Below are positions 406 through 16,455 of a DNA stretch of 64,000 nt, one piece after another. The position numbers and the translations under genes were made by a program. The stretch spans positions 6,708,501 through 6,772,500 of the forward strand of contig NZ_CP015225.1 of the NCBI RefSeq assembly GCF_001623525.1. Reading direction: 5' to 3'. The notes beneath the pieces were generated by a model. The model had not been told where the DNA came from. It made no database searches and saw only the letters and a program-made list of their open reading frames with translations. Position 1 is the stretch's first letter; the number at the start of each line of letters is the position of its first letter. The DNA is from Pseudomonas fluorescens. Its GTDB lineage: Bacteria; Pseudomonadota; Gammaproteobacteria; Pseudomonadales; Pseudomonadaceae.

Positions 406-431
406 GGACTTGCCCTTCGGCTTGTAGGACG

Positions 432-457
432 AAGCCCGCACTGGTTGCGGGCTTTTT
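432..457 (+). terminator. Rho-independent terminator after the SDR gene
   Basis: Nine-base GC-rich arms (AAGCCCGCA and TGCGGGCTT) with a five-base loop are followed by a short T run. It lies 27 bases after the SDR stop codon. Confidence 0.8.
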
Positions 458-611
458 CGTGGGGCGCTCGAAAAAACCTCGGAACGGTCCTTCAATGTGT
501 TTCAAAGGGTGAGAATCGACGGTTTTGGCGACGTTGTCGTACATCGTCCCGTTGCGGCCTGTGCTTAACTGTTTCCGGAAATAAAACAAATGCTTAGGAG
601 CTTGGTTACTC

Positions 612-2002
612 ATGGAGTTGAGAATCGACCGACAGGCCCTGGTGCCTGTCGTGCAGCAAATCGTTGACGCGCTGACCGGCTGGATCCGACAGGATGCGGT
701 ACAACCGGGAACTCGGCTGCCATCCGTCCGCCAACTGGCGCGGGAGAACCTGCTCAGCCAGTCCAGCGTCAATGAAGCCTGTGAACGCCTGGTCGCCCAA
801 GGCCTGTTGGCGTCCCGCCATGGTTCCAGCTTTTTTGTCGCACCACCCCCGTCGCCCGGGCCCGAGCCCACTGATCAGAATCGACAGCAAGCCACGTTCA
901 CCGACGGGGGCGACAGCTCGCAATGGGAGTTGAAGCTGGGGTGTGGCGGGCTACCCGAGAGCTGGCGTGAAAGCGATGACCTGGGCTATGCGATCCGCCA
1001 GGTCACTCGCACCGACATGGCGGGATTGTTCAACTACAGTACGTCGTTGGGGCTGCCTGCCCTGCGTGAGCAACTGTCCAGGCGCTTGAAACAATTCAAT
1101 ATCGAGGTCGATAAAGACCTGATCCTGACCACCACCGGGGCGACCCACGGGCTGGACCTGATCGTACGGACATTGTTGCCGCCGGGTTCCTGCGTGGTCG
1201 TGGAGAGCCCCGGCTATTCAAGCCTGTTCGACCTGCTCAGGTTGCACGACATCGACATGATCGAACTGCCCAGGACCCCGCGCGGCCCGGACGTCGATGC
1301 GCTGCAAGACCTGCTGGCGATGCACCGGCCCACTGCGCTATTCGTCAACAGCGCCTGCCATAACCCGACCGGCACCAGCCTGGCTCCGGCCGTCGCTCAA
1401 CGGCTGCTGCAATTGACGAAGGAGCACGGCGTACTGGTGATCGAAGACGATGCCTATGGCGATTTCCAGAGCGCGGCGCGGACCCGGCTAGCGGCATTGG
1501 ATCCTGAGGTGGTCTACGTGGGCAGCTTCTCGAAAACCCTGAGCAGTTCGTTGCGCGTCGGTTTCGTGGTGGCCGGGCCTTCCATCATCGCGCGCCTGAG
1601 CGAGGTCAAGGGCATTACCAGCATGGGGGGGATCGCGGTTCTGTGAGTCGGTCCTTGCCTGCCTCCTGGCCAATGGCGCCTATCGCAAGCTGGTCCAGCG
1701 CCAGCGGCAGCGTCTGGGTGCCGATATGGCGGCGCTGTTGCAGGTACTGGAAGACGCCGACTGGGAGGTCTTTGGCAAGCCGGCCGGGGGGGCTTTTCAT
1801 CTGGGCAAGACCGCCATTGTGTGACTACGCTGGAGTACAGCGCCTGGCCAGGCGTTTTGGCGTGCTGCTGTCTTCGCGTAGCGCATTCAGCCCTTCGGGT
1901 GCCGACAGTGACTGGCTACGGATCAACGTGGCGTATGCCCGTGACCCCAGGGCGCTGGCGTTCTTCCGGGCAGCGGCTCTGGATCGACCTCTAGTGTCCT
2001 GA
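612..2002 (+). pseudogene. MocR-type GntR/aminotransferase regulator, broken by two +1 frameshifts
   Basis: An intact version would be a roughly 460-residue regulator: an N-terminal GntR winged helix (LPSVRQLA, then a recognition helix around residues 35-70) joined to a fold-type I aminotransferase domain. NPTGTS and the PLP-lysine motif GSFSKTL (Lys near residue 308) are seen in the first frame. Translation stops at 1644-1646. The protein resumes in frame 1 after a run of seven G (1625-1631), giving GSRFCESVLACLLANGAYRK. It shifts again at a second run of seven G (1786-1792) to GGLFIWARPP and a normal C terminus ending at 2002. Removing one G from each run restores the whole protein. Sequencing error, true decay or phase variation are all possible. 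Confidence 0.85.
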
Positions 2003-2112
2003 AAACGACGCAGCTGTAGCTTTTTGCCATTATTCCGACGCCAGCATCTTGTGTTGCAGGGTGTCTCGTTGCGAATCTGCAATCAACACACACTGGCAGA
2101 GGACTGAGCGCA

Positions 2113-4080
2113 ATGATTTCCGCCGTGCAAGGACGTTTTGCCAACCTGGGTATGGCAAAGAAACTGGGTATCGGATTTGTCCTGGTGCTGTTGCTGACCG
2201 CAGTGGTCGCGGCCATCGGTGTCTGGTCCCTGCAGACCATCAGCCATCGCTTCGATGGCCTGAAACAGATGTCGTCCCTCAACAGCGGGTTGCTCAAGGT
2301 CCGGCTGCTGGAGCAGGAATACGCCTCGCGCTCCGACCCCAAGACCGCCGATGCGTTGCGCCAGGGGGTCGACGCTCTGGTGGCCCAGGCGAACGAACTC
2401 AAGGTGCAGTCGGCTGCCAACGTGCCGGTGATGAACGACGTGGAGCAGGCGCTGGGCGCGTATCGCAAGGCGTTCGACGAATTTGTCGGGTTGAGCCAGA
2501 GCAAGGACCTGGCGCTGGAAATGGCCAGTTGGTCGGTGTCCAGCGTCGCCAATAACCTGGATGTGTTGCAGGCCGGGCTGGCTGATGATGGCACCTATAC
2601 CTTGAAAGATTCCGAGGGCAAGGAGGGGGCCGAGTTCATCGAGCAGGCCAACCAGGTCAGCGAAGTATCCCGCTTGATGTTGCAGGCCATGAACGAAGCG
2701 CGGGTCCGCCTGGACCAGAGCCGCAAAGGCAATGTCGAGGGCGCCGGAGAAGGCAGCATCGAGCAGGCCGAGCAGGCGATGAAACAGGCCGAAGTGCTCA
2801 AGACCACGGTCAAGGACCCGGGTTACCAGACCGTGCTGAATGAAGTGGCCGGGCATATCGCCGGGTTCAATGAGCAATTGGCCGAATACACCGGCCTGCT
2901 GGCGAAGGAAAAAGTCGTCTACCAGCAACTGCACGAGCGGGCCGATCAAGTGGTGGCGCGGGTTGACCAGGCCTTCGGTGCCGAAGACCAGGCCATGCAG
3001 ACCGAACTGAAGAAAAATTCGCTGCTGATCATCGGTTCGTCGGCCTTGGCGTTGCTGGTGGGATTGATCGCGGCATGGGTCATAACCCGGCTGATCGTGA
3101 CGCCGCTGCGCAGTGTCATTCGTGTGGCCCAGCAGATTGCGTCGGGTGACTTGAGCGCCACGGTGGAGGTGACGCGCCGAGACGAAATTGGTCAGTTGAT
3201 GCAGGCGATGCAACAGATGGGCGCGGGGCTGAGCAGTATCGTCAGCGGCCTGCAGGCCGGTATCGAGCAATTGGCCAATTCGGCCCAATCGCTGTCAGCC
3301 GTGACCGAGCAGACCAACCTGGAAGTCAGTAGCCAGAAAGAAGAAACCGAGCAGGTCGCCACGGCGATGAACCAGATGACGGCCACGGTGCATGACGTGG
3401 CACGCAATGCCGAAGAGGCGGCCCAAGCGGCCCAGACTGCCGACGACAAGGTCGAAAGCGGCCAGCAGGTGGTGCGTCAGAGTATGGTGCGCATCGAACA
3501 GCTGGCCGATTCGGCCACGTCGGCCAGTTCCAGCATCGAAAGCCTCAGTGCCGAGATCCAGAACATCGGTACGGTGCTGAGTGTGATCAAGAGCGTGGCC
3601 GAGCAAACCAACCTGCTGGCGCTCAATGCCGCTATCGAGGCAGCCCGGGCCGGGGAGCAGGGCCGGGGCTTTGCGGTCGTGGCCGATGAGGTGCGGGCGT
3701 TGGCCAAGCGCACGCAACAGTCCACCGAGGAGATCGAGCGACTGGTGAGTGCCCTGCGTTCAGCGGCCCAGGCTTCCGTGCAGCAGATCCAGAGCAGCGG
3801 CGAGTTGGTGAAGATGGCGGTCAGCGATGCACTACAGACCGAAAGCGCCTTGGGCAGTATTGCGGCGGCGGTATCGCTGATCCAACAGATGAACCAGCAG
3901 ATCGCGGCGGCGGCCGAGCAGCAGAGTTCGGTGGCCGAGGAGATCAATCGCAGTGTCACCAGCATTCGCGCCAGCGCCGATCAATCCTCTCTGGCGATGC
4001 GCGGCAATGCCGCTTCCAGCATCGAGCTGGCGCAGTTGGGGGTTGAGCTTAAGGGGATGGTGGGGCATTTCAGGTTGTGA
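2113..4080 (+). CDS. Methyl-accepting chemotaxis protein, HBM-type sensor
   Basis: A 655-residue transmembrane chemoreceptor. The first membrane helix is near residues 18-42. A large, almost wholly helical periplasmic domain of about 260 residues follows, then a second helix near 302-327, a HAMP domain and the cytoplasmic signalling coiled coil. The conserved hairpin tip ([20 protein letters not shown], from about residue 497) contacts CheA and CheW. Size and helicity of the sensor suggest the helical bimodular (HBM) family of McpS-like receptors, several of which sense organic acids; the ligand here is unknown. There is no C-terminal CheR-binding pentapeptide. GAGGA upstream of the ATG supports the start. 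The gene looks monocistronic. Confidence 0.9.
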
Positions 4081-4152
4081 GTCCGCGATAGCAGGTCCAA
4101 CATTCCAACAGTTTTGCCTGCCTGGCGGTGTACGGGCATAGTTTACAGCCCC

Positions 4153-4245
4153 GTGGCGAGGGAGCTTGCTCCCGCTGGGCTGCGAAGCAGACCCGAAATT
4201 CGTGGGAGTGCTGCGCACTCCAGCGGGAGCAAGCTCCCTCGCCAC
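4153..4245. repeat. REPIN (inverted REP doublet), copy 1
   Basis: Two REP sequences face each other: GTGGCGAGGGAGCTTGCTCC at the left and its reverse complement at the right, joined by a variable middle. The same arms recur at 34391, 37229, 40661 and 59781. It separates the chemoreceptor from the convergent gene at 4277-5047. Confidence 0.9.
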
Positions 4246-4276
4246 AAAAGCTCCACCTGCACAGGGTGGAGCCGTA

Positions 4277-5047
4277 TCAGTCGTAGACTTTCTTCTTCTT
4301 CCACTCGTCGTTGACTTCGGCTTCCTTCAGCCCTTCGGTCAACTGGTTGACTTCGCCTTCGACCGGCTGGGTGCTGGCCAGGACCTGGGCATTGGCGCGG
4401 GCCAGGAGTTTTTCCAGGTAGGCCAGTTGTTCGGCGTAGACCTGGGGTTCCTGTTGCTTGCGCAGGTACTGCACGCCACGCTCGAAGGCCAGGCGGGCCT
4501 GCCCGGGTTGTTCTTGCTGCAGGGCTTGCTGGCCGAGGTTGTTGAAGAACTCGATGTGCAGCAGCACCAGGATGTGTCGCACTTCGCGAATCCAGCGCTT
4601 GGCTTCGTTAGGCGGCAGGAAACCGTCCTGGGCGGCACGGGTGATCTGGCCGTGCAAGGCCTCAAGCAGAAAACGTACGTCCTTGGCCTTGGCTTCGGTC
4701 TGGATCGGTGCCGGTGGATTGTTCACCGGGATCGATTCACCTTGGGCGGCCAGTGTGCTCAATTCGTCCAGGCGTGCCTTGACCGCAGAATTGGTTTTCT
4801 CCAGGTTCAGCAGGCGCTGACAGACGTTCATCTCAAGGCGAGTCATCAACAACTTCAGGGCAGGGGTCATCAACTGCCCGGGGAAGGTTTCGGTGAGCTC
4901 CCCACAGCGACGCATACGGTCGTTGAGTTCTACCTTGGTGCGGGCCTTTTCCAGCTTGTTGTTTTCCACCACGTGGTTCATGTAGCCAATGGCGATCAAC
5001 AGGGCGATCCCGGCTACGACGAGCAGGGTGATCATGAGTGGTGTCAC
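4277..5047 (-). CDS. Conserved membrane-anchored protein of unknown function
   Basis: 256 residues. An N-terminal hydrophobic stretch (residues 3-22, ITLLVVAGIALLIAIGYM) looks like an uncleaved signal anchor. The rest is soluble, helical and charged. Residues about 125-225 (LGQQALQQEQPGQARLAFER and neighbours) resemble a degenerate TPR pair. The C terminus is lysine-rich (EWKKKKVYD). I do not recognise a named domain. It is probably an inner-membrane protein with a cytoplasmic scaffold-like domain. It is transcribed alone, toward the chemoreceptor gene. Confidence 0.75.
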   Translation of the reverse strand: MTPLMITLLVVAGIALLIAIGYMNHVVENNKLEKARTKVELNDRMRRCGELTETFPGQLMTPALKLLMTRLEMNVCQRLLNLEKTNSAVKARLDELSTLAAQGESIPVNNPPAPIQTEAKAKDVRFLLEALHGQITRAAQDGFLPPNEAKRWIREVRHILVLLHIEFFNNLGQQALQQEQPGQARLAFERGVQYLRKQQEPQVYAEQLAYLEKLLARANAQVLASTQPVEGEVNQLTEGLKEAEVNDEWKKKKVYD

Positions 5048-5406: not shown

Positions 5407-5482
5407 GTCCCCTTCGTCTAGTGGCCTAGGACACCGCCCTTTCACGGCGGTAACAGGGGTTCGAGTCCCCTAGGGGACGCCA
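5407..5482 (+). tRNA. tRNA-Glu (UUC), copy 1
   Basis: A 76-base cloverleaf. The acceptor stem GTCCCC pairs with GGGGAC and the CCA end is encoded. The anticodon stem is CCGCC/GGCGG with loop CTTTCAC, giving anticodon TTC at 5441-5443. The T loop is GGTTCGAGTCC. The gene is identical to the copy at 5666-5741. Confidence 0.97.
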
Positions 5483-5484
5483 AT

Positions 5485-5560
<76 letters not shown>

Positions 5561-5665
5561 ATTTTAAACAGTGTTGCTTTCGAGCAGGGCTGAGTGAAGC
5601 CAGAGCCGACATCTTCGGATGCGGATTTGGGCACTGAAATACACACCATGTGTTTCAGTTAGTGT

Positions 5666-5741
5666 GTCCCCTTCGTCTAGTGGCCTAGGACACCGCCCTT
5701 TCACGGCGGTAACAGGGGTTCGAGTCCCCTAGGGGACGCCA
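5666..5741 (+). tRNA. tRNA-Glu (UUC), copy 2
   Basis: The sequence is identical to the copy at 5407-5482. It sits 105 bases after the first tRNA-Gly, in a tandem duplication of the Glu-Gly pair. Confidence 0.97.
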
Positions 5742-5744
5742 TTT

Positions 5745-5820
<76 letters not shown>

Positions 5821-5860: not shown

Positions 5861-6092
5861 GCGCGTAAAAAAGGCCATCTCAATGCCCAAGGTTATGTTT
5901 CCGGCGCTCAAGGGGCTTTGACCAGCGATTCGTCTTGTCTGAGGGGGCTGACGACGTTTTTCCTTAATATTGAAGGGGAGTGGAGAATATTTCCTGCAAA
6001 ATTCAAGGGAAAACGCCTAGGAAGATTAATAGTTCATTCCTAAAGAAATGCACTTCTCCTAACCTTCCAGTACCCATTCTGGAGATGCATTT

Positions 6093-6725
6093 ATGCTGAT
6101 TTTCGTTAAATCGATGGTCATTGGGCTGTGCATTGCAGCCCCTGTAGGACCCATTGGGCTGTTGTGCATACAGCGAAGTCTGATGCTTGGGTGGAGAGCC
6201 GGTTTCGCGACGGGATTGGGCGCGGCCACAGCCGATTCGATCTATGGATTCATCGGTGCCCTGGGTGTTACCGCCGTCATTGCGACGCTCATCAGCTTCA
6301 AACCCTGGTTGTGCATCTTTGGAGGATTGTTCCTCGCCTACATTGGCTATCAGACAATACGATCGAAGGGTGGCGCGACGGCCATGGCGGGGGAGCGTGC
6401 CAACCTGTTCAAAGCCTACTCGACCACGCTGTTCCTGACGCTTTCCAACCCCATGACCATCTTGTCGTTTATCGCGATATTTGCTGCGTTGAGTGATGGC
6501 ATGGCCAGTGACCAAGGCGGCCAGCACGCCTTGTTGCCGATGGTGACCGGTATCTTCCTGGGCTCGGCGGTCTGGTGGTTGGGGTTGAGTGGTTTCTCCT
6601 CCATTTTCAAGGCGCGGATTGCCGAATCGAAGCTAAGGCTGATCAACTACTTTTCAGGGGCAACCATCGCCCTCCTGGGGGCCTATCAGGTCGCCACTGG
6701 CGTCATGCTGGCCACGGCAATCTGA
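6093..6725 (+). CDS. LysE/RhtB family amino-acid exporter
   Basis: 210 residues with six predicted membrane helices, the normal size for the family. The family N-terminal signature is present: GLCIAAPVGPIGLLCIQRSL, then GWRAGFATGLGAATADSIYG. The third helix (GGLFLAYIGYQTIRSK) and SNPMTILSF also fit. Family members export amino acids or analogues using the proton gradient. GGAG lies nine bases before the ATG. The gene converges on the aminotransferase and shares the region with a putative amino-acid-derived metabolite cluster, so exporting or excluding that product is a plausible role (inference). Confidence 0.9.
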   Translation: MLIFVKSMVIGLCIAAPVGPIGLLCIQRSLMLGWRAGFATGLGAATADSIYGFIGALGVTAVIATLISFKPWLCIFGGLFLAYIGYQTIRSKGGATAMAGERANLFKAYSTTLFLTLSNPMTILSFIAIFAALSDGMASDQGGQHALLPMVTGIFLGSAVWWLGLSGFSSIFKARIAESKLRLINYFSGATIALLGAYQVATGVMLATAI

Positions 6726-6792
6726 CCCAAGGCTTATGCCTCGCTGAGCGGGGCATAAGCTTTGGTGTCTCCCTGCGACGCACGCAGGACGT

Positions 6793-8049
6793 TTATTCCA
6801 ACCTGAACTCGACGTACGCCCTGAAACGGCCTATCGCCTGGGTGATTTGCGAGGTGGTTGCATTGCTGAATGACAGCCTGACCTGGGTGGTGGCCTCATT
6901 CATCAGTGAAAACAACGTGGTGGGAAATACAATCACCTTGAACAGCCTGGCGCATTCGCGCATTTCAAAATATCCAAAGACGAAAGGCAGTTGCACATTG
7001 ATGAAGAAGCCGCCTGTCGGATGATTCCAGCTGACTGCTCTTTGAGCGTCGGCTTTGAGTGGAAATTCGCGCTCAAGGCATTCAAGCATGTGATTCCTTT
7101 TATTTGTATAAGACAGCACCCTGGGTTGGTTCAGCTCTCTCAGCGAGTAGTGGTGCTCGATCAGCAAGCCTGCGACAACCGCTTGGCACAGGGCGGGGGT
7201 GTTCACCGTGATCAGGCTTTTGGCTTTGCACAATCGACTGCTGAAGGACATGACCCCAGTGCCCTCTGGGGCGACCACATAGCCCATGCGCAAGCCCGGG
7301 AAAATCGATTTGGCAAAGGAGCCCAGCAAGAACACCCGACGACTGTCGATGGACTTCATCGACGCAATGGCATCGCCTTCGTACCTGAAGTAACGGTAGG
7401 CAGTGTCTTCGAGGATGAAAAAGTTCTTTTCATCGGCCAGAGAGAGCATGGCTCTCCTGTCGTCATGGGAAAGGCTGTCGGCAGTAGGATTGCTAAAGTC
7501 CGGAATCGCATAAAGCGCCTTGATTCGTTCACCTCTGGATTCCAGTGCTTCGATGAGCCTGCGCAGGGCAATCGGATCAAGAAAGGCAGCCATGGGGACG
7601 GGGACTATTTTTATACCCAGCAGTTTTGCGATACCCGTGATCCCGGAAAACACCGGATCAGGTACCAATAAAACCCCGCCGCCTTCAAAAATGGACAGGA
7701 GCGTCAAGGTGCAGGCTTCTTGAAAGCCCATGCACACCACAATGCTTTCAGGGTTGGCAACGTTGATCGCTTCATCCACCTGCAGATGGCTGGCGATTAT
7801 TTCATTGATGATTCCAGCGGTTTTTCCATATTGGCAAAGCAGCGTCGCAAGTGACTGCTCGGTGCCGGCAACGTGATCTTTGTATTGGCTCAGGCCCCTG
7901 TCGATGAGCGAAGGGTCGCACTGCTCATCATCGGGTCGACCGGAGGCCAGTGAAATGGCCTCCGGGTTTTCTTGGGCAATCGAGTTTAGTAGGTGAATGA
8001 CGTTCAGGATGGGGGCGTCGAATATCGTGCTTTCGAATGCGCTGGACAC
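6793..8049 (-). CDS. Fold-type I PLP-dependent aminotransferase
   Basis: 418 residues of the class I/II aminotransferase type related to the catalytic half of MocR proteins and to 2-aminoadipate aminotransferases, but with no DNA-binding domain. Motifs: ASGRPDDEQCDP near the N terminus, the cofactor aspartate region YAIPDFSNPTADSL, the PLP lysine in LLGSFAKSIFPGLRMGYV, and an arginine in TTQVRLSFSNA for the substrate carboxylate. I chose the GTG at 8049 because GGAGAAG precedes it at the right distance; the longer frame would begin with TTG inside a terminator. It is the last gene of cluster A, 62 bases after the PLP lyase gene. Substrate unknown. Confidence 0.85.
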   Translation of the reverse strand: MSSAFESTIFDAPILNVIHLLNSIAQENPEAISLASGRPDDEQCDPSLIDRGLSQYKDHVAGTEQSLATLLCQYGKTAGIINEIIASHLQVDEAINVANPESIVVCMGFQEACTLTLLSIFEGGGVLLVPDPVFSGITGIAKLLGIKIVPVPMAAFLDPIALRRLIEALESRGERIKALYAIPDFSNPTADSLSHDDRRAMLSLADEKNFFILEDTAYRYFRYEGDAIASMKSIDSRRVFLLGSFAKSIFPGLRMGYVVAPEGTGVMSFSSRLCKAKSLITVNTPALCQAVVAGLLIEHHYSLRELNQPRVLSYTNKRNHMLECLEREFPLKADAQRAVSWNHPTGGFFINVQLPFVFGYFEMRECARLFKVIVFPTTLFSLMNEATTQVRLSFSNATTSQITQAIGRFRAYVEFRLE

Positions 8050-8063
8050 TTTCGCTTCTCCAT

Positions 8064-8098
8064 AAAAAAGCAACGAGCCATTGAAGGCCCGTTGCTCA
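8064..8098 (-). terminator. Intrinsic terminator between the two PLP-enzyme genes
   Basis: Read on the - strand, GCAACGGGCC and GGCTCGTTGC form a hairpin (one mismatch) followed by TTTTTT. It follows the stop of the 8112-9257 gene and its T run ends just before the ribosome-binding site of the aminotransferase gene, so it may limit read-through into that gene. Confidence 0.8.
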
Positions 8099-8111
8099 TG
8101 ATCAACACCCG

Positions 8112-9257
8112 CTACGCAGGATCGAGTGAGCTTTCTTGATCGACCATGCGCTCCATGGCTTCGAATGCCTGCAGCAGGTCTTCCTTGAGGTCATCCAGGT
8201 CCTCCAGGCCAAAGCACAATCGAACCAGGCCTTTCTCGATGCCCATGTCCGCTTTTTCCTGATCCGTCATCGAGGCATGGCTGCCACTGAAGGGCTGGGC
8301 AACCATCGACGTCACGCAGGCCATTCCCGTGCCCGTGCCAAACCATTTGAGCGTGCTGGTGAACGTTTTGTAGAAGGGAACCAGGTCGGGTCGAATATCG
8401 ACAAACACGATGCCGCCGTAACCGGTCAGTTGTTTGCCATCGACGCGTGGGTAATAGACATGCTCGATAAAAGGCAGCTCGCGCAGATAGTTGAGCATGC
8501 TGGCTGTCGTCTGGCTGTGCTTTTCCATGCGCAGGTTGAACGTCTGCATGCTTCTGCGAAGCAACCATGCGCTATTGGGCGTTAATATCGTGCCTGAATA
8601 AAAGCGACCCTCGAGCAGGCGGTTGTAAATCATTTCACTGTTGACCAGAACCAGACCGCCCATGACATCGCTATGCCCGGAGAAGTATTTGGTGGCGCTG
8701 TACAGTGAAATGTCGGCGCCAAAGTTCAACGGCTTCTGAAATATCGGCGTGGCCCAAGTATTGTCAACCACCACCAGCGCTTGCGGGTTGTTTTGCTTGA
8801 CGGCCCGGCTGACCGCATGAATATCAATGTCTTTCAGGAACGGGTTGGTCGGTGTTTCGAAAATGACCATGTCGACGTTCGCCGGCAAGGCATTCAACCC
8901 GTCTTGCGTGGTGAGATCCAGAATCGTCAGGTGTGCGCCGATGCGTGCTGCATACCGCTGGAACAATTTATAAGAGCAGCCATAAATGTATTTGTTGATG
9001 ACCAGAGAAGCACCCGGCTTCAACAGTTCCAACACCATGTAGATGGCGCTCATCCCGGTGCTGTACGCCAGGGCATATTCGCTGCCCTCCAGGGACGCGA
9101 CAACCTGTTCCAATTCACTCACGTTGGGATTGGCCTTCCTTGAGTAGAAGAAGGCCGAGTCAGCGCTGAAGGCGCTGCACTGATAAATAGGCGTGACCGA
9201 AGGTCGGGCGTCCCGGTCATCGACCTTGATATGAAGTATTTCAGTAGACACTTTCAT
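8112..9257 (-). CDS. Cys/Met-metabolism PLP enzyme (cystathionine synthase/lyase-like)
   Basis: 381 residues, full length for the family of cystathionine gamma-synthases, gamma-lyases and O-acylhomoserine sulfhydrylases. Motifs: YSRKANPNVSELEQVVASLE, the cofactor-stacking region AYSTGMSAIYMVLELL, DMVIFETPTNPFL, VVDNTWATPIF, and the PLP lysine in SLYSATKYFSGHSDVMGG. The C-terminal half is more divergent than in housekeeping members (LKWFGTGTGMACVTSMVAQP in place of the usual SLGGVES-like stretch). Its ATG overlaps the radical SAM stop codon (ATGA), so the two are translationally coupled. Beta- or gamma-elimination or replacement on a modified amino acid is the expected chemistry; the substrate is unknown. 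Confidence 0.88.
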   Translation of the reverse strand: MKVSTEILHIKVDDRDARPSVTPIYQCSAFSADSAFFYSRKANPNVSELEQVVASLEGSEYALAYSTGMSAIYMVLELLKPGASLVINKYIYGCSYKLFQRYAARIGAHLTILDLTTQDGLNALPANVDMVIFETPTNPFLKDIDIHAVSRAVKQNNPQALVVVDNTWATPIFQKPLNFGADISLYSATKYFSGHSDVMGGLVLVNSEMIYNRLLEGRFYSGTILTPNSAWLLRRSMQTFNLRMEKHSQTTASMLNYLRELPFIEHVYYPRVDGKQLTGYGGIVFVDIRPDLVPFYKTFTSTLKWFGTGTGMACVTSMVAQPFSGSHASMTDQEKADMGIEKGLVRLCFGLEDLDDLKEDLLQAFEAMERMVDQESSLDPA

Positions 9258-10738
9258 GCTTGGCTGACCAGTTTGATGACCTGTTCATACATGTTTTGCT
9301 TGCCCTCGTAACCAATGGTCGGGGTAATGTCGTTTTGCGAAATACCAATTTCTTCAATCGATTCCGTGGGGAAGTGAGCCCTGTCGAATACTTCATGAAG
9401 GTTCGAGTTCACCCCGTTGGGGAGCCAGACCTCAGGACCGGTTTCGTCGATGCGTGCCTTGGCAATAATGAATCGATAGCTTTCATGGGGTCGCAGCGTC
9501 AGTGATTTCCAATCGCTGTTGTGCCCGTCCGTATAGTTGCGCCGCAGGTAGACGGTCTGTTCGAAGTCTTCGGTATTCAGCACTTGAGCGTGCAGCGACA
9601 CGATATCCCCATGCCACTCGAACTTGCGTTTCTCGTAAGCGCTCAGCGCCTCCTCTCGCAGCTCGACAGGAACGTTCGCCTGGTGTTCGCCCAGCAGTTT
9701 GAAATGCGCATCGTGCCCGCATTGAGAGCAGCAACCCTTGCTGTCCAGCCCGATGATTTCAGCGTTCAAACCATAGCGGGTGACGAGCAGGGCGTTACAG
9801 TTGTTGCAACTGGTGTTGGTGCCCTCAACGTCATTCACGTTGCCCAGATAGACATGCTCTACGCCCATGCTCCGAGCAACGTCCCGAGCCTTCAGCAACC
9901 GGTCCACGGGGGTACGGATGCTGTTGCTCATTTTGTAATCGGGATGGAACCTGACGAAGTGCAACGGCACATTCGGGCCCAGCTCATCCAATACCCACTG
10001 GCTGATTTTCCGGGCCGTTTCCTCGTCGTCGCTGATGTCGGTCACCATCAAGGTGCTGACCTCGACATATTTGCCGGCGTCGTAGACCTTCTTGATTCCC
10101 GCCAGGACTGGCTCTACCCAGCCGGTGGTGACCTTGCGGTAGTATTCCGGGGAAATAGATTTCAGCGAAATCGAGAAAATATCGATGACCGGCAGTAATT
10201 CATCAATGGCTTCTTCACTGATAAAGAACGCCGATTTATATAGGTTGATCAGGCCCGCTTCCTTGGCCAGCCTTGCCGTGTCGAGGATGAACTCATGCCA
10301 GACAACGGGATCGTTATACGTCCAGGAAATGACGCGTATTCCGTGCTTGAGTGCGGTTTCCACAACTTGTTCAGGGGTGTAGTAGTAAACGTCTTTGTCG
10401 GTGACGTACTTGGCCTGCGAGGTCTTCCAGTTGTGGCAATAACCGCAGTTGAGCATGCAACCGATATTGCCCAGGGACAGGATCCGCTCTCCAGGGGCAA
10501 AGTGGAAAACGGCTTCGGTCTCAATCGTTTCTTCCGTGCTGTGAACACCTTTGCCGTAGTTCAATGTAACGAGTCTGCCGCCTCGGTTCCCGCGCACTTT
10601 GCAAAAACCTACCTTGCCCTCCTGTATGACACAGTTTCGCGGGGAAAGATGACACTTGACGACGCCCCCCGGGAGTATTTCTTCCAGTTTTGCCGGGCTG
10701 CTTTCCAAGGTCCAGTTTTTATTTTTTGTAGTGTCCAT
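9254..10738 (-). CDS. AmrS-like radical SAM enzyme with extra C-terminal domain
   Basis: 494 residues. The iron-sulfur cluster motif is CMLNCGYC (Cys-x3-Cys-x2-Cys) in the context LGNIGCMLNCGYCHNW. Upstream are HLSPRNCVIQEGKVGFCKVR and the glycine-rich stretch characteristic of the AmmeMemoRadiSam system enzyme AmrS. A second cysteine set, TSCNNCNALLVTRYG and KGCCSQCGHD, matches the AmrS C-terminal CxxC pairs. About 130 further residues, from roughly residue 365, are not part of typical AmrS proteins of about 340 residues; they look beta-rich. No AMMECR1 or Memo gene is nearby. I start at ATG 10738, where GGAG lies eight bases upstream. The chemistry is unknown. Confidence 0.87.
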   Translation of the reverse strand: MDTTKNKNWTLESSPAKLEEILPGGVVKCHLSPRNCVIQEGKVGFCKVRGNRGGRLVTLNYGKGVHSTEETIETEAVFHFAPGERILSLGNIGCMLNCGYCHNWKTSQAKYVTDKDVYYYTPEQVVETALKHGIRVISWTYNDPVVWHEFILDTARLAKEAGLINLYKSAFFISEEAIDELLPVIDIFSISLKSISPEYYRKVTTGWVEPVLAGIKKVYDAGKYVEVSTLMVTDISDDEETARKISQWVLDELGPNVPLHFVRFHPDYKMSNSIRTPVDRLLKARDVARSMGVEHVYLGNVNDVEGTNTSCNNCNALLVTRYGLNAEIIGLDSKGCCSQCGHDAHFKLLGEHQANVPVELREEALSAYEKRKFEWHGDIVSLHAQVLNTEDFEQTVYLRRNYTDGHNSDWKSLTLRPHESYRFIIAKARIDETGPEVWLPNGVNSNLHEVFDRAHFPTESIEEIGISQNDITPTIGYEGKQNMYEQVIKLVSQA

Positions 10739-10841
10739 CTTTCTCACTCCTCATCACGGAAGTTGTTATCAATATCATCGGTTGAAAAAAATCGAGGCGA
10801 AACAATCCCGCTGCCATGGATGGCAACTATCTTTATGGGTG

Positions 10842-11555
10842 TTAGTAGGCGGATGAAGCGCGAATCAATCCATAGTTCTTGAGAGAAAAGCGCTTGGCAT
10901 TCATGTTCATGAAGGGTTGAATAAGCGGGCCGATCACCAGCAGGAATGCGATCGTTCCCACGCCGAACGGGCCGCCTAAAAGCCATCCGCCCGAAAAGAT
11001 GCCGATTTCAATGATCATTTTGGCTTTGGTGAATGACCAGCCCCACTTGGAAACCATGGTCAGGACCACGAGGTCCATGATTCTGATTCCAATACCGCTC
11101 ATGATGATCAGCGCGGAGGAGTAGGCACATAACACCAGTCCCGTCGCCAATAACATGTACTCATTCATTCTCGCGATCAAATACTCTCCGAGCCCCAACC
11201 CTGACCAGAGATCAATCAACAGGCCGGTCAGCGTTGTTGTAATAAAGGGACTTATCGGCGGGTATTTTTTGTTCCAGAGCATCCACCATGTCAGGAAGAA
11301 GAGCGACACGATAGCCGAACAAATGCCCATGCCGAGCATAAGTATTTTATCGATGGAAATGATCAAGACGTCTAATGGGTCGGTACCCAGTTGGCTGATG
11401 ATGAAGCACTTGGCGCCCAGTGAAAAGAAACCGACACCCGTCAAGTACATCAGGAGCTGGTCCTTCTTGAAGTGGCGAAAACTTAGTACTTGCGTGCCAA
11501 TGTACTGAGCGAATGAGTATGACTTTTTTCCACACTTTATCTTCTCATCTTCCAT
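10842..11555 (-). CDS. YczE/YitT-like integral membrane protein
   Basis: 237 residues with five or six hydrophobic segments. The conserved features of the YczE/YyaS family are present: GVGFFSLGAKCFIISQLGTD then PLDVLIISI, GLLIDLWSGLG, and GGPFGVGTIAFLLVIGPLIQ. The N terminus carries a charged cytoplasmic tail. The family's function is unsettled; some members lie beside peptide or amino-acid biosynthesis genes. It is the first gene of cluster A, 103 bases ahead of the radical SAM gene, and is divergent from the Lrp-type regulator. Confidence 0.8.
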   Translation of the reverse strand: MEDEKIKCGKKSYSFAQYIGTQVLSFRHFKKDQLLMYLTGVGFFSLGAKCFIISQLGTDPLDVLIISIDKILMLGMGICSAIVSLFFLTWWMLWNKKYPPISPFITTTLTGLLIDLWSGLGLGEYLIARMNEYMLLATGLVLCAYSSALIIMSGIGIRIMDLVVLTMVSKWGWSFTKAKMIIEIGIFSGGWLLGGPFGVGTIAFLLVIGPLIQPFMNMNAKRFSLKNYGLIRASSAY

Positions 11556-11685
11556 GCGAGCACCATCCCTGGAGAGAATATTTTATTATGAGTGCGTCAC
11601 GCTAAAGAGCAGGGCTATTGATTGCCCTCAGGCTTTCAGGCTGGAAATAGACTAGCGCTCTGCTTTATTTTGGTGCATGCTTTTT

Positions 11686-11713
11686 TTAATGAAAAACGCG
11701 GGCTTTTCATTAA
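11686..11713. promoter_or_regulatory. Inverted-repeat operator in front of the Lrp-type gene
   Basis: TTAATGAAAA (11686-11695) and TTTTCATTAA (11704-11713) form a perfect 10-base inverted repeat with an 8-base centre. It ends four bases before a -10-like TATACT (11718-11723) and 30 bases before the regulator's ATG, covering the -35 position. That placement suits autorepression and control of the divergent cluster A genes. Regulator binding is inference. Confidence 0.65.
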
Positions 11714-11743
11714 AATTTATACTTTTAACCGGGGAAAACGCAC

Positions 11744-12175
11744 ATGGATCGTATAGACGTCAAAATCCTGGGTAAGGTACAGGACTGTGGTCGCATTTCC
11801 ATCACAGAGCTTTCCAAGCACGCAGGTCTTTCTATTCCTGCCACCAATGACAGGTTGCGCAAACTTGAAGACTCAGGGGTCATCAAGGGCTATCACGCTC
11901 AGTTAGATCCAACCAAACTGGGGTACGGCATATCAGCTGTCGTCGGCATCACCACCCTCAAGCCGGCGAAATCCAAATTAATAGCAACGCTCACCGACAT
12001 ACCTGAAGTCGTTGAATGCCTGCACATCACGGGAAACGATTCCTATCTGATCCGGATCTACGCCAGATCCATGGCTGAAATCGAGGACATCATTGCGAAA
12101 ATCAACGCATACGGAGAGACGCGTACCAGCATTGTCCTGTCCATTCCCATCGAGAGAAGAAAGCTCGCCCCGTGA
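11744..12175 (+). CDS. Lrp/AsnC family transcriptional regulator
   Basis: 143 residues, a normal length. It begins directly with the family helix-turn-helix (MDRIDVKILGKVQDCGRISI, then LSIPATNDRLRKLEDSGVIK). The C-terminal RAM ligand-binding domain includes VEVV-like VVECLHITGNDSYLIRIYA. Lrp-type proteins form dimers to octamers and sense amino acids. The gene is divergent from the YczE/radical SAM/PLP cluster and has a perfect inverted repeat in its own promoter, so local control of cluster A by an amino-acid ligand is the natural reading (inference). GGGGA lies upstream of the ATG. Confidence 0.92.
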   Translation: MDRIDVKILGKVQDCGRISITELSKHAGLSIPATNDRLRKLEDSGVIKGYHAQLDPTKLGYGISAVVGITTLKPAKSKLIATLTDIPEVVECLHITGNDSYLIRIYARSMAEIEDIIAKINAYGETRTSIVLSIPIERRKLAP

Positions 12176-12248: not shown

Positions 12249-13442
12249 CTAGCTCTGGCACGGGTGGGGATGCTTCTGTGGCCAGCGAGACATCCACACG
12301 AGTAATAGCATCATGGCGGCGGGGCAGAGGGTGACCGCCAGTAAACCGATGTGCAAATCCGAATGCGCTGAAATAATTCCCACAAGCCATGGAATCAGAC
12401 TGCATCCGGCATTACCCGAGGCTGTCAGTACAGAGAACATGGTTGCTCCACCTTGAGGGTAGGCATCTGCGGTAATGGCGAGCATCGTGGGCCATAGGCA
12501 ACTGCCTGAGAACCCTGCGGCGATGGCAGCGGTTAACGCCAATGCGGGGCTGGGGGTGAAGCTGATCACGAAAAACAGGACGACGGTCACGGCGCAGCAG
12601 CCTAGCATCAGTGAAACGGCGGGTATCCGTTCTTGCAGCAGAGCGGCAGCCATGCGCCCGAGGGCCATGCCCACTGAAAAACCGGCGAGCGCAAACCCCC
12701 CCACTTCTTTCGAGTAGCCCAATCCTTGTTCAGCGAAGGCGGGCAGCCATTGAGACAGTCCCGTTTCCGTAGCTCCTCCTAGAAAGATGGCGATCATGCA
12801 GGCGATGAAATAGGGTTGTCTGATAAGCGCGGGCATGGATTCGCGTTGCACGTGCTCCTGTATCAGCGGTGGCAGGGGCAATCGCAGGAACAATAGAAAG
12901 GTTGCAAGCGGGGCAATGATCAAGCCCAAGGCGACCATGCGCCAGGAAATGTCCCATCTCAGCGCGATGCTTGCGATCAGCACGGCACTTACCGCGCCAA
13001 TGCAGAAATACGAATGCAGCCAGTTCATGGCGGCGCTTCGGCGCTCGGGTTGCAGGGCTGCGACAATAGGGCTGAGTATCATATCCAGCACACCCGCACC
13101 GAAACCCATGATGGCAACCGCGAAGAGCAGGAAGGTATAGGAAGGGGCAAAAGCCACAAGGGCCAGACCTGCTGAAGTGGTCATCAGCCCAAAGAGAATG
13201 ATCCGCCTGGCGTCCCCTCGGTCTGCCAATGGCCCGGTGATCAGAATGGCCACTATAAAGCTGAGGAACATGACCGCCGGAATCCGTCCCAGTTGCTCCG
13301 TGGTCAGCCCTGACGAGGGGCCAAAGGCATCACTGAACGTCGTCAGGTACACCGGCAGGAAGTTGAGTGCCATGGCCAGGCACAGCATGGCTGCATAACA
13401 AGCGTAAAGCGCGTGTCGATGGGGATTGGGCGCAGACAGCAT
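12249..13442 (-). CDS. MFS transporter, sugar-type (FucP-like branch)
   Basis: 397 residues with twelve predicted membrane helices. SSGLTTEQLGRIPAVMFLSF and the loop GPLADRGDARRIILFG fit the MFS branch with FucP-like sugar porters. NWLHSYFCIGAV and AAGFSGSCLWPTMLAI are also branch-like. I use the ATG at 13442, which lies 20 bases after the DUF1349 stop; the longer frame to 13499 would overlap that gene. It is the last gene of cluster B and probably exports or imports its product or substrate. Confidence 0.85.
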   Translation of the reverse strand: MLSAPNPHRHALYACYAAMLCLAMALNFLPVYLTTFSDAFGPSSGLTTEQLGRIPAVMFLSFIVAILITGPLADRGDARRIILFGLMTTSAGLALVAFAPSYTFLLFAVAIMGFGAGVLDMILSPIVAALQPERRSAAMNWLHSYFCIGAVSAVLIASIALRWDISWRMVALGLIIAPLATFLLFLRLPLPPLIQEHVQRESMPALIRQPYFIACMIAIFLGGATETGLSQWLPAFAEQGLGYSKEVGGFALAGFSVGMALGRMAAALLQERIPAVSLMLGCCAVTVVLFFVISFTPSPALALTAAIAAGFSGSCLWPTMLAITADAYPQGGATMFSVLTASGNAGCSLIPWLVGIISAHSDLHIGLLAVTLCPAAMMLLLVWMSRWPQKHPHPCQS

Positions 13443-13462
13443 CAGGTATAAAACTCTTGAAA

Positions 13463-14065
13463 TTAGAAACGTGGGGCGCCGTGCGCTTTCCAACAGCATT
13501 CAGTCCATTCAATCTCTGAAAAATGAGCTGCGAAAGATGAATCGCCCGGGCTACTGGCAAAGAACCCGAACCGGACGAGTTCTTCTGCATGGAGCAGGTG
13601 GAACATACGCATCATGCAGAACTGTGTCCCGTCAACCGAGTTTTCCAGAAGGAAGTCGCTGCCTCTTCGGCTCAGGCGGTAATACATGGTCTGGGTGACG
13701 CGATCGAAATCAGCCATGGACCAGTCTGAAAAACCATTGTTGGTCACGACAGAGAACAGCTGCTGGAAACCATTGTTCTGGTATTCGATGCCGCTTTTCA
13801 TCCAGTGGTTTTTATCTTGGTAGATAAACAGGCCGCATTGGTCAAAGTAGGTACTTGAGGCAAAAGATACCTTGGCCTTCAATGTCCAGTATTGTTCCTC
13901 GCTGGCAACCACAATGGCCGGTGCATTGTCATACTCCAGGCCGTAATAGGTGCCTCGCCAGAAATCGGTGTCGGGTGTGGTGTGGATAATGATTTCCTGA
14001 TCGTTGATGGACGATCGCTCGGGGACGTTAATCCAGGTCCAGTCTGAAATACTCAGTTTTTTCAT
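13463..14065 (-). CDS. DUF1349 domain-containing protein
   Basis: 200 residues with no signal peptide. The whole protein is a concanavalin-like beta-sandwich of the DUF1349 family: TDFWRGTYYGLEYDNAP, YFDQCGLFIYQDKNHWMKSG then IEYQN, NGFSDWSM, and a late RFGFFASSP. Family members are thought to bind carbohydrate-like ligands, but no activity is established. It starts seven bases after the HAD gene within cluster B, so it may act on or bind the cluster's sugar-like intermediate (inference). Confidence 0.8.
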   Translation of the reverse strand: MKKLSISDWTWINVPERSSINDQEIIIHTTPDTDFWRGTYYGLEYDNAPAIVVASEEQYWTLKAKVSFASSTYFDQCGLFIYQDKNHWMKSGIEYQNNGFQQLFSVVTNNGFSDWSMADFDRVTQTMYYRLSRRGSDFLLENSVDGTQFCMMRMFHLLHAEELVRFGFFASSPGDSSFAAHFSEIEWTECCWKAHGAPRF

Positions 14066-14072
14066 GCTTTTA

Positions 14073-14723
14073 TTACCCGAAAAACCAGTGGTTTATTTCC
14101 CAGTGCTGGTGAACACGTAAATCCGCCGCGCTCAGGTCCTGCTGCCCTGAATTGGGGTTGAGCAAACCCGCGCAAAACATGCTGGCGGCTTTTGCTGCCG
14201 CCACACCATGAGCGGAGTCTTCAATCACCACACAGGATGACGGTGGGAGACCCAGGCGTTGGGTGGCCATGAGAAAGATCTCGGGATCTGGCTTGCTGTG
14301 CGTAACGTCATCGCCACACACGATCTCACTGAAAAAAAGCTGCAGCCCAGCGTTACGTAAAATCAGCTCAACGAGTGCTCGCGGTGAAGAAGAGGCGACT
14401 GCACAAGGTATTCCCGCTCTCTGTAATGCGCCGAGAAGTTCTGTCACGCCTGGCATGGGAGGCAGGGGGGCGGAACTCAATACTTCCATCAACTGCCGGT
14501 GATGCTCCGCCATGAGGCAGTCCAGATCTTCTGCAAGCCCGTATTCGGTTTTGATGGCGCTCCACATATGACGCTGCGTGGTGCCTACAAAACGAGACAG
14601 TTCTGCCTCATCAAGCACCACGCCATGGCGTGCATAGGAATGTCTTTCCTGTTTCATATAGACCGGCTCACTGTCCACCAGCACACCGTCCATATCGAAA
14701 ATGAACCCCTGGAAAGCCAGCAT
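14073..14723 (-). CDS. HAD-IA phosphatase, beta-phosphoglucomutase-like
   Basis: 216 residues. HAD motif I is FDMDGVLVDSEP with the nucleophilic and acid/base aspartates. Motif II serine is in CAVASSSPRA, the motif III lysine in THSKPDPEIF, and the motif IV acidic residue in CVVIEDSAHG. The cap domain (residues about 18-85) is of the small helical type. Such enzymes dephosphorylate sugar phosphates or ribityl/ribosyl phosphates. The ATG overlaps the stop of the reductase gene by one base (TGATG), so the pair is probably coupled. Confidence 0.87.
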   Translation of the reverse strand: MLAFQGFIFDMDGVLVDSEPVYMKQERHSYARHGVVLDEAELSRFVGTTQRHMWSAIKTEYGLAEDLDCLMAEHHRQLMEVLSSAPLPPMPGVTELLGALQRAGIPCAVASSSPRALVELILRNAGLQLFFSEIVCGDDVTHSKPDPEIFLMATQRLGLPPSSCVVIEDSAHGVAAAKAASMFCAGLLNPNSGQQDLSAADLRVHQHWEINHWFFG

Positions 14724-15397
14724 CAATGCGCACGCCGCTGTTGAGGGTCACGCTTGAAGTGCAGGAAGTTATAGTGTGAGCGTGCTTCAAACTCATGCAG
14801 CTTGAAGGCTTTGGTCATTTCAATGTCCTGGAATCCTTCGCCATCTATTAGCGTGGTAGTGTCTGAGCCGCCAATGATGATAGGCAATTGCATGAGCATG
14901 ATTTCGTCGACTAGATCAAGATTGAATACCTGCCAGTTCAGGTGGCCACCCCCTTCAACCATGATGTGATTTATTCCGCGAGCTTCAAGCATCGGGAAGA
15001 GCTGTTTGAAGTCGACTCGTGCGGTTCCTGCAAAAAGAACCTCTTTACCATGCGCGCGGATGTGCTCGACCATCTTGTGGTCACGTGCTTCTTCTGTCGT
15101 TGCGATGATAGTGTGTTCGGGAGAACTGAAAATTTTCGCAGAAGCTGGGAAGTTGAGCGATGTCGTAGGAATGATACGCACAGGATTACGACCGGACTCA
15201 TAGCGATTGGTCAATTGAGGATCGTCGGTGATAATCGTATTGCGACCGACCATGATGGCATCGACTTCACCGCGGAATTTATGAATGAAGCGCATGTCTT
15301 CATCGTCGAAATGCTGAAAAAGCGGTTTGCTGGAGGCTTCATTGCCGAGCGTCAGTTTGCCATCGATGGAAATCTGGCTGAATACAGTAACTTTCAT
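14723..15397 (-). CDS. RibD C-terminal-type reductase (archaeal-style pyrimidine reductase)
   Basis: 224 residues, made only of the dihydrofolate-reductase-like RibD C-terminal domain with no deaminase domain. Motifs: VFSQISIDGKLTLGNEASSK, GEVDAIMVGRNTIITDDPQL then NRYESGRNPVRII, and HIMVEGGGHLNWQVF. These match 2,5-diamino-6-ribosylamino-pyrimidinone 5'-phosphate reductases (ArfC/MJ0671 type) better than bacterial RibD. It would use NADPH to open a ribosyl to a ribityl phosphate, or reduce a related compound. Start at MKVTVFSQ, since the upstream extension runs into the alcohol dehydrogenase. With a HAD phosphatase following, it suggests a riboflavin-like side pathway (inference). Confidence 0.85.
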   Translation of the reverse strand: MKVTVFSQISIDGKLTLGNEASSKPLFQHFDDEDMRFIHKFRGEVDAIMVGRNTIITDDPQLTNRYESGRNPVRIIPTTSLNFPASAKIFSSPEHTIIATTEEARDHKMVEHIRAHGKEVLFAGTARVDFKQLFPMLEARGINHIMVEGGGHLNWQVFNLDLVDEIMLMQLPIIIGGSDTTTLIDGEGFQDIEMTKAFKLHEFEARSHYNFLHFKRDPQQRRAH

Positions 15398-15426
15398 AAG
15401 GGGTCTACTTGAAGGGCTGGTTAGCT

Positions 15427-16455
15427 TTAGCGTGACAAGTGCTTGGGATTGGGGGTGAAGACGCTTTTTATCGTGGGTGCGCAAGGATCATTCAACAAAC
15501 TGTCAAATGCTGTTGAATAAGCTTCAAGGGGATAACGGTGGGTGACTAGCTTTCCAAGTTCAGGAAGCCTGTGGGCAATGCGCAGCGCCCGGGGGAAGTG
15601 CTGGTTGTACTCGCCTGCGGCAATGATACTGATGGCATTGACCAAGAAGTGTTTTGCAGGGAGTGAATATTCATAATTCCCGTTGAATCCGAACAGGACA
15701 ATCCTGCCACCTCGGGCAACCCGGCTGGCGGCTGTCTCGAGCTGATTACCCACGGTATCGATGACAACATCGTATTTTTCCTGGTTTTGCCCAAGGCACT
15801 CAAGTTCCTCAGGGCGCACGATGTTCAAACCCAGGGAGTGTCCGAATTCGATTCGAAAGGTATTCAAATCGGTAGCACATGTATGGACGCCCATCGCGCG
15901 CAAAAGTAGTTGTGCGACCAGGCTCATGGGGCCCGATCCTAGAAGCAGCACACGTTCCCCCGCTTTGATGGAGGCTTGTTCAATGTTGTTCAAAATACAG
16001 GCTACGGGTTCAACCAAGACGGCTGTTTCCCAACTCATGTCGTCTGGGATGCAGTGTACAAAGCGCTCGCGTGTTATGAATCGCTCCGCAAATGTACCGT
16101 GCTTGTTGACGCCGGCGATGTCCAGGCCCGCATTTGAACCGCCATTGCATAGATGGGTTCTAGCGGCGTTGCAATGTTCGCAGTTACCGCAGTATTCGTT
16201 GGGGTCTATCACCACACGCATCCCTTTACGCGTGCGTTTGACGCCTGCCCCTACATTGACAACGACGCCGACCGCTTCGTGACCACGGACGATTCCCACC
16301 TGTCCCTCTTCACGCCCGGACAATACCGCCAGGTCTGTTCCGCAAATGCCGGAGAGTACAACGTCTATTTCTATACCATCGGCGGGTAGCGTTTCGGACA
16401 CTTCGTGACTCACCAAGCTCAACGTTCGTGTGCTCGCTAAACTGATTGCTTTCAT
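15427..16455 (-). CDS. Zinc-dependent alcohol dehydrogenase (MDR family)
   Basis: 342 residues. Catalytic zinc ligands are seen in SGICGTDLAVL (Cys), RGHEAVGVV (His-Glu) and the later LVEPVACIL (Glu). The structural-zinc loop has four cysteines in NEYCGNCEHCNAARTHLC. The nucleotide fold is VLLLGSGPMSLVAQLLLRAM. It resembles sorbitol, threonine and ribitol-phosphate-type dehydrogenases that oxidise secondary hydroxyls of polyols. It is the first gene of cluster B, followed after 29 bases by the reductase gene. The polyol or sugar substrate is unknown. Confidence 0.88.
   Translation of the reverse strand: MKAISLASTRTLSLVSHEVSETLPADGIEIDVVLSGICGTDLAVLSGREEGQVGIVRGHEAVGVVVNVGAGVKRTRKGMRVVIDPNEYCGNCEHCNAARTHLCNGGSNAGLDIAGVNKHGTFAERFITRERFVHCIPDDMSWETAVLVEPVACILNNIEQASIKAGERVLLLGSGPMSLVAQLLLRAMGVHTCATDLNTFRIEFGHSLGLNIVRPEELECLGQNQEKYDVVIDTVGNQLETAASRVARGGRIVLFGFNGNYEYSLPAKHFLVNAISIIAAGEYNQHFPRALRIAHRLPELGKLVTHRYPLEAYSTAFDSLLNDPCAPTIKSVFTPNPKHLSR

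Follow-up and report, generated by a model that had tools for sequence, protein, structure and literature searches.

The stretch of DNA considered here is a window of 64,000 nucleotides from Pseudomonas fluorescens (assembly GCF_001623525.1, contig NZ_CP015225.1, positions 6,708,501 to 6,772,500 of the forward strand), and it carries a compact set of six genes (Table 1). An Lrp/AsnC-type regulator faces away from a run of genes for a YczE-like membrane protein, an AmrS-like radical S-adenosylmethionine (SAM) enzyme, a pyridoxal phosphate (PLP) enzyme of the Cys/Met-metabolism family (here CGS) and an aminotransferase-like PLP enzyme of class I/II (here AT), while the gene for a LysE-type amino-acid exporter converges on the far end of this run. 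An earlier note made from the DNA letters, which we call the original prediction, had named these six genes, and both the open reading frames (ORFs) and the profile searches bear it out for each of them, the membrane protein being no more than YczE-like, as its score stays under the cut-off of the YczE profile. The ORF list covers frames of at least 90 amino acids, and a small precursor peptide would fall below its range.

Two start codons were corrected from the positions of Shine-Dalgarno sequences. The likely start of AT is GTG 8049, preceded by GGAGAAG, and that of the radical SAM enzyme is likely ATG 10738, preceded by AGGAG.

Table 1. Features of the six-gene cluster and its immediate surroundings, in window coordinates
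Feature	Position	Strand	Evidence
LysE-type amino-acid exporter	6093..6725	+	PF01810, 96.3 bits (cut-off 25.6); convergent with the operon; in 29/29 loci
AT, PLP class I/II aminotransferase-like enzyme	6793..8049 (likely start; open to TTG 8073)	-	PF00155, 84.7 bits (cut-off 19.7)
Intrinsic terminator between CGS and AT	8068..8097	-	12 bp stem, then a T run
CGS, Cys/Met-metabolism PLP enzyme	8112..9257	-	Cys_Met_Meta_PP, 316 bits (cut-off 27)
AmrS-like radical SAM enzyme	9254..10738 (likely start; ORF to GTG 10747)	-	TIGR04337, 291.1 bits (cut-off 220)
C-terminal part of the radical SAM enzyme, beta-sandwich	9254..9646	-	Invariant H-x-V-(F/Y)-DRAHFPT; without a Pfam match
YczE-like membrane protein	10842..11555	-	NF052291, 75.2 bits (cut-off 205); in 29/29 loci
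Palindrome in the yczE-lrp intergenic region, candidate operator for the Lrp of the cluster	11686..11713	.	TTAATGAAAA-N8-TTTTCATTAA
Lrp/AsnC-type regulator, divergent from the operon	11744..12175	+	PF01037, 56 bits (cut-off 25); in 29/29 loci
Tandem tRNA-Glu/tRNA-Gly pairs (duplicated array) adjoining the cluster	5407..5820	+	ARAGORN

Conservation and mobility within Pseudomonas

Pseudomonas loci were fetched through the AmrS gene alone, 14 from a genome collection and 15 as further regions of the same genus. All 29, which come down to 23 distinct contigs once six duplicates are removed, carry Lrp, YczE-like, AmrS-like, CGS, AT and LysE genes in identical order and orientation, a gene being counted as present when its match covered 60% or more of the query with an identity of 50% or more. 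Chance clustering was rejected on this basis. The genes that the original prediction had grouped thus do co-occur elsewhere, and the aminotransferase, LysE and Lrp genes, whose joint travel with the radical SAM/CGS pair it had proposed to check, accompany that pair in every Pseudomonas locus.

The genomic site is less constant than the gene content. Glu/Gly tRNA genes stand beside the cluster in 18 of the 29 loci, equal to 14 of the 23 distinct contigs, counting one (L008) that shows a single tRNA-Gly only, at the contig end; the site was not seen in the other nine contigs, among them one (L004) cut by a contig end. A fixed unit of six genes found at more than one genomic site has apparently moved, and we regard the cluster as a six-gene unit that has apparently been transferred between Pseudomonas species. 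It occurs in 17 of 398 Pseudomonas genomes sampled evenly across the genus, the host genome included, and its radical SAM gene in 4 of 398 genomes of a phylum-wide sample, two of which are Pseudomonas (again counting the host). Carriage by plasmids or phages found no support: the cluster had no plasmid match at E 1e-100, and the phage search returned four records only, all weakly similar (24-25% identity); in three of these the annotation is pyruvate formate-lyase (PFL) activating enzyme.

Features of the AmrS-like radical SAM enzyme

The radical SAM enzyme resembles that of the AmmeMemoRadiSam system in scoring above the curated cut-off of TIGR04337 (Table 1), with a match that spans residues 26-347. 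Its CX3CX2C motif lies at C96/C100/C103, and four further cysteines (C313/C316/C339/C342) are invariant (cysteines numbered from GTG 10747). The AmrS-type assignment of the original prediction therefore holds for the family; it does not extend to the AmmeMemoRadiSam system, in which membership was rejected because neither Memo (PF01875) nor AMMECR1 (PF01871) had a match in the host genome, a single contig of 6.92 Mb, the same searches giving matches in 5 of 14 control genomes each. The partner genes of the cluster differ as well, and its AmrS carries an extra C-terminal domain with the DRAHFPT motif, which matches to archaeal and other canonical AmrS proteins do not reach. Judged by its sequence, the enzyme belongs to a group defined by this additional domain, and it is probably misnamed in databases, where it bears the AmmeMemoRadiSam name without the partners of that system in the genome.

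In a tree of AmrS proteins, the sequences of Pseudomonas, Burkholderiaceae and Halomonas, which we call type A, form one clade (7 rows, support 100/100). Five of the eight canonical rows contain stops (one each in L050, L058 and L079, three in L082 and twelve in L084), and the L082 and L084 rows are misframed, which makes the placement of the outgroup unreliable; the type-A clade was judged independent of it. The sequence from the cyanobacterium Hormoscilla (L019) was left out of the alignment for a stop in the stretch.

The two PLP enzymes

CGS stays well below the cut-offs of the characterized activities of its family, with 252.2 bits against 549.7 for methionine gamma-lyase (MGL; TIGR01328), 271.5 against 594 for cystathionine gamma-lyase (NF005810, PRK07671) and 241.3 against 504.55 for cystathionine gamma-synthase (TIGR02080). 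Its best match by sequence in the Protein Data Bank (PDB) is an MGL. Across 130 aligned rows, the PLP-binding Lys190, Tyr92 and the carboxylate arginine Arg346 are kept wherever the row is ungapped, Y92-G93-C94 is found in 129 rows (the remaining one being gapped), and Thr316 in 125. The cysteine of this Tyr-Gly-Cys, Cys94, is presumably the equivalent of Cys116 of MGL. In cystathionine gamma-lyase and gamma-synthase, an active-site glutamate meets the distal amino group of the substrate; CGS has Thr at position 316 instead of this glutamate, and the three paralogs in the same genome align there with Lys, Glu and Glu. CGS looks like an active enzyme with a changed specificity.

AT is harder to place. 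Its nearest NCBIfam models, the aminotransferase parts of MocR-type regulators and GntC, all score far below cut-off, and a profile search matched no helix-turn-helix domain in it.

Control elements

Of 14 aligned sequences (the window and 13 loci), 12, among them the window, have both arms of the palindrome between yczE and lrp without a change; in the other two (L010 and L012) one base differs in an arm or in each arm. The host genome has one perfect copy and one other place with three mismatches, none with one or two, and the control gave 0. Conservation marks the palindrome as a site, of which the local Lrp is the putative ligand, and the single exact copy in the host genome points to an Lrp that serves this cluster alone.

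The second element is the terminator between CGS and AT. The 36 nt around the hairpin fold at -21.4 kcal/mol (z -8.0), and the structure is present in 14 of the 15 sequences folded; the exception is L012, whose AT start is more distant and whose 75 nt viewed did not show it. The hairpin alignment comprised 21 of 30 sequences (the 29 loci and the window), leaving out the six duplicates and L012, L101 and L106 (no pattern match). In its 20 distinct rows, pairing extends to 97.9% of cells. Both partners of four pairs have been replaced, in a single sequence in each case; 2 of 500 shuffles reached this count, and sliding partners were 33-60% paired. Terminator-like sites in the region exceed those of shuffled sequences (12 against 6.9, standard deviation 2.9). 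The hairpin also lies directly before the ribosome-binding site of AT and could act on translation too.

These elements bear on the claim of the original prediction that the radical SAM enzyme and the two PLP enzymes share one transcript, which is only partly right. The AmrS and CGS genes overlap by ATGA, and the conserved, covarying terminator before AT qualifies the claim. With this terminator in between, the level of AT is probably below that of the upstream genes, its expression probably depending on read-through or on a transcript of its own. Together, the operator-like site and the terminator would provide simple handles for expression of the cluster.

Surroundings of the cluster

The G+C content is 0.60-0.63 in bases 1-5000, to the left of the cluster, and 0.47-0.55 in bases 6001-12000, which hold it. 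To the right, window positions 12249-15484 carry consecutive minus-strand genes for a major facilitator superfamily (MFS) transporter, a DUF1349 protein, a HAD hydrolase and a RibD-C-like reductase. A wider cluster with these four genes was rejected, since they adjoin the six-gene unit in only 3 of the 29 Pseudomonas loci. Farther away, an rne-II RNA was found at 56448-56716 on the minus strand (246.8 bits), which we take to be the RNase E 5' untranslated region element of pseudomonads.

Relatives beyond Pseudomonas

The 27 loci outside Pseudomonas were found through AmrS and searched by tblastn with a curated set, and selected genes were identified by Pfam and NCBIfam; in GC-rich loci the ORF calls included spurious frames, such as L108:5383-7392, without a Pfam match. 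AmrS and CGS occur together in 8 of these loci. Their hosts are two Burkholderiaceae leaf symbionts, Halomonas, Hormoscilla (where the CGS match is split), two Acidobacteriota and two Magnetococcales. The radical SAM/PLP lyase pair that the original prediction had proposed to look for in other genomes is therefore found there, other phyla included. In the Acidobacteriota the two genes are not contiguous, with an NRPS (non-ribosomal peptide synthetase) gene between them in Pyrinomonadaceae and about 7 kb in Terriglobia (about 7 kb is the distance between AmrS and CGS in L031). The listed hits of the two proteins have 19 contigs in common against about 0.5 expected, in a comparison of 120 of 913 AmrS hits with 118 of 639 CGS hits in which contigs were equated by size. 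In the leaf-nodule symbiont Ca. Paraburkholderia schumanniana (L016), the YczE and AT matches (L016:1037-1646 and 4692-4959) lie in two frames each, the frame breaks reflecting either decay or sequencing error, and AmrS and CGS are open.

Other AmrS relatives keep different company. In 9 of the 27 loci, from actinobacteria and one cyanobacterium, AmrS stands with a cupin and a class V aminotransferase, most of these loci having in addition a dehydrogenase and either an AurF-like N-oxygenase or LysE, and some a ferredoxin. These loci (L021, L024, L027, L028, L034, L036, L037, L039 and L040) appear to represent a second biosynthetic set; four of them have the AurF-like N-oxygenase, and three of these four an RraA-ferritin fusion. 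In 5 of the 27, AmrS is accompanied by LysE and by further radical SAM proteins of the SPASM and HemN-like kinds, four of the five having YczE in addition. The Streptomyces loci L022, L023, L025, L029 and L030 show the three radical SAM genes (AmrS-like, SPASM, HemN-like) consecutively, followed by LysE; their SPASM proteins are nearest to PapB-type peptide maturases, and the whole arrangement is apparently an uncharacterized natural-product set. In four further loci a SPASM protein accompanies AmrS and a HemN-like one is lacking, and L026 lacks all of these partner enzymes, its matches being weak and confined to LysE-like and dehydrogenase-like ones. LysE relatives occur near AmrS in many of the actinobacterial sets.

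Adenylation domains as a clue to the product

An adenylation domain adjoins AmrS in three loci, one from Pyrinomonadaceae and two from Magnetococcales, with the codes DVWLIVGVT, DVWMIVGVT and DVWLIVGVT in domains of 47-57% overall identity. The same or nearly the same code was read in 32 of the 120 listed relatives of one of these domains, two of the three loci's own included, in a readout that counted the 25 commonest codes and left 4 of the 120 rows unread and some residues undetermined. The next commonest code, DAWTIAAVC (12), we take to be of the phenylalanine type. The pocket has no charged residue besides the general Asp, and a neutral, fairly hydrophobic amino acid would be expected as substrate.

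Adenylation-AmrS-CGS loci were found in 2 of 48 genomes of the order Magnetococcales, both already known, and 2 of 33 contigs with adenylation hits matched CGS contigs in size, one of the two being short. In one of the Magnetococcales loci, a phosphatidylserine-decarboxylase-like gene (L108:12241-13008) lies directly behind the adenylation-AmrS-CGS run. Among the proteins P0245-P0266, 20 of 22 are 718-753 amino acids long with condensation and adenylation matches and no carrier domain listed, and all 20 have the code DVW(L/M)(I/V)VG(V/I)T.

Proposed function

We consider it probable that the cluster is a mobile cassette that makes and exports a neutral, non-proteinogenic alpha-amino acid, or a compound closely derived from one, and that this product acts outside the cell. 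It would most likely be an antimetabolite in the style of 4-formylaminooxyvinylglycine (FVG) or L-2-amino-4-methoxy-trans-3-butenoic acid (AMB). Synthesis and export of an unusual amino acid, as the original prediction put it, is the reading best supported by the co-travel of the genes, the AmrS-CGS pair in other phyla, the adenylation codes and the palindrome: AmrS-CGS relatives that adjoin adenylation domains with a neutral code fit the synthesis of an unusual amino acid, and a palindrome that is exact once in the genome fits local control. The product, the order of the steps and the role as a signal that it also raised are matters that we infer.

In the proposed mechanism, the local Lrp would bind the palindrome at 11686-11713, control the divergent operon and probably itself, and respond to an amino acid, either the product or a precursor. 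The AmrS-like enzyme, with its radical SAM core and C-terminal domain, would generate a 5'-deoxyadenosyl radical and rearrange, fragment or extend the side chain of an ordinary amino acid. CGS, given its kept PLP residues and altered specificity residues, may then perform a beta- or gamma-elimination or replacement that leads to the final neutral, possibly unsaturated side chain. AT, probably present at a lower level behind the conserved terminator, could supply or recycle the keto-acid form, LysE would export the product, and YczE may help in transport or tolerance.

Several points weigh against this proposal. The chemistry, the substrate and the product are suggestions of ours, the residues of CGS were compared with its relatives and the three paralogs only, and the nine positions of the adenylation codes were placed approximately, by GrsA numbering. 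In the DNA examined, AT, LysE and YczE are all missing from the three adenylation loci, and the Pseudomonas product may therefore differ from theirs. AmrS lacks CGS in 19 of the 27 loci outside Pseudomonas, which means that CGS is not obligatory to the radical SAM enzyme. Promoter-like sites in the region are no more frequent than in shuffled sequences (4 against a mean of 4.9), and the G+C content remains low (0.50-0.58) beyond the right-hand end of the cluster as far as position 19000, so that it does not mark the cluster borders by itself. Finally, an Lrp gene next to an MGL-like enzyme is also a layout of amino-acid catabolism, as in Pseudomonas putida, where the methionine gamma-lyase MdeA goes with the Lrp-type MdeR.

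This last point leads to the strongest alternative, which we nevertheless find unlikely, namely that the cluster serves amino-acid catabolism or detoxification. Lrp would sense a sulfur-containing or unusual amino acid, CGS would cleave it like methionine gamma-lyase, AT would handle the keto acid, LysE would serve as a safety valve, and the radical SAM enzyme would open an otherwise inert substrate. The MGL-type Cys94 of an enzyme encoded near an Lrp gene and its best PDB match fit this, and LysE exporters are often safety valves. Against it stand the score of CGS, far under the MGL cut-off, the AmrS-CGS relatives that adjoin adenylation domains in three loci, since a degradation set would be unexpected beside NRPS domains, and the actinobacterial AmrS relatives beside other biosynthetic-looking enzymes, often with LysE.

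Less probable still is that the cluster makes a small signal, or a molecule akin to a cofactor, which Lrp would perceive as the receptor, in place of an antimetabolite. The one perfect operator-like site of the genome and the compactness of a set with no obvious resistance gene, transporters aside, would suit such a role; the same single site, with copies searched to three mismatches, suggests that Lrp controls the cluster alone, which is poor for a wider response, and LysE exporters usually move amino acids. That the radical SAM enzyme modifies a protein or a peptide, in the manner of the PFL activating enzyme, which would make the metabolic reading wrong, we hold to be very improbable, as no glycyl-radical enzyme is among the six conserved genes (the search covering ORFs of at least 90 amino acids and thus leaving room for a small precursor peptide) and the partners that recur across loci are PLP enzymes together with an exporter of the amino-acid type.

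Beyond the exported amino acid proposed for Pseudomonas, we tentatively suggest, with slightly less than even confidence, that AmrS-like proteins with the C-terminal extension constitute a separate family of radical SAM enzymes, all of which use a so far undescribed reaction to form the same intermediate derived from an amino acid. In at least four phyla (neighborhoods were seen in Pseudomonadota, Acidobacteriota, Actinomycetota and Cyanobacteriota), bacteria would pass this intermediate to different second enzymes, these being CGS, the cupin with the class V aminotransferase, or the SPASM and HemN-like radical SAM proteins, before export or loading by adenylation domains, giving rise to several new natural-product classes. 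The DRAHFPT motif would be one marker leading to a natural-product group in actinobacteria, Acidobacteriota, Magnetococcales and leaf symbionts. If the main reading of the Pseudomonas cluster holds, pseudomonads of the P. brassicacearum, kilonensis and thivervalensis group own a compact mobile set of genes by which a new amino acid is made and exported.

Comparison with known systems

The MdeR/MdeA pair of P. putida resembles the cluster in combining a regulator of the Lrp type with a nearby Cys/Met PLP enzyme that has the MGL-type cysteine, and differs in that CGS falls below the MGL cut-off and the cluster adds the radical SAM enzyme, AT, the YczE-like protein and LysE. BesB of the propargylglycine pathway, compared here by description only, is likewise a PLP enzyme of the Cys/Met family that makes an unsaturated amino acid; the Bes pathway uses a halogenase and a di-iron oxidase, whereas the cluster pairs its PLP enzyme with a radical SAM enzyme.

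The original prediction had not recognized this combination of genes, and no characterized pathway that matches it came to light: we found no description of the six-gene set in the open-licence literature, which is weak evidence, confined as it is to such papers, among them a study on leaf endophytes (PMC10405798). Furanomycin was considered as the product because strain SBW25 makes it, and nothing links it to the cluster; the source describes the pathway in SBW25 as yet to be investigated and cites a polyketide origin for Streptomyces (PMC3662646).

Two Pseudomonas antimetabolite clusters are precedents with LysE genes. The FVG (gvg) cluster makes a non-proteinogenic amino acid in pseudomonads with 12 gvg genes, for which the formyltransferase GvgI was proposed as a marker (PMC8064604). 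This formyltransferase family is not among the six genes or the four to their right, according to a profile search of those ten; like the cluster described here, the FVG set is a Pseudomonas amino-acid cluster with LysE genes that has moved horizontally and lies in some cases beside tRNA genes. The two NRPSs and two Fe/2-oxoglutarate oxygenases of the AMB cluster of P. aeruginosa are also not among the six genes or the four to their right, and the two clusters are alike in placing a LysE-type transporter next to enzymes for an unusual amino acid (PMC4357302).

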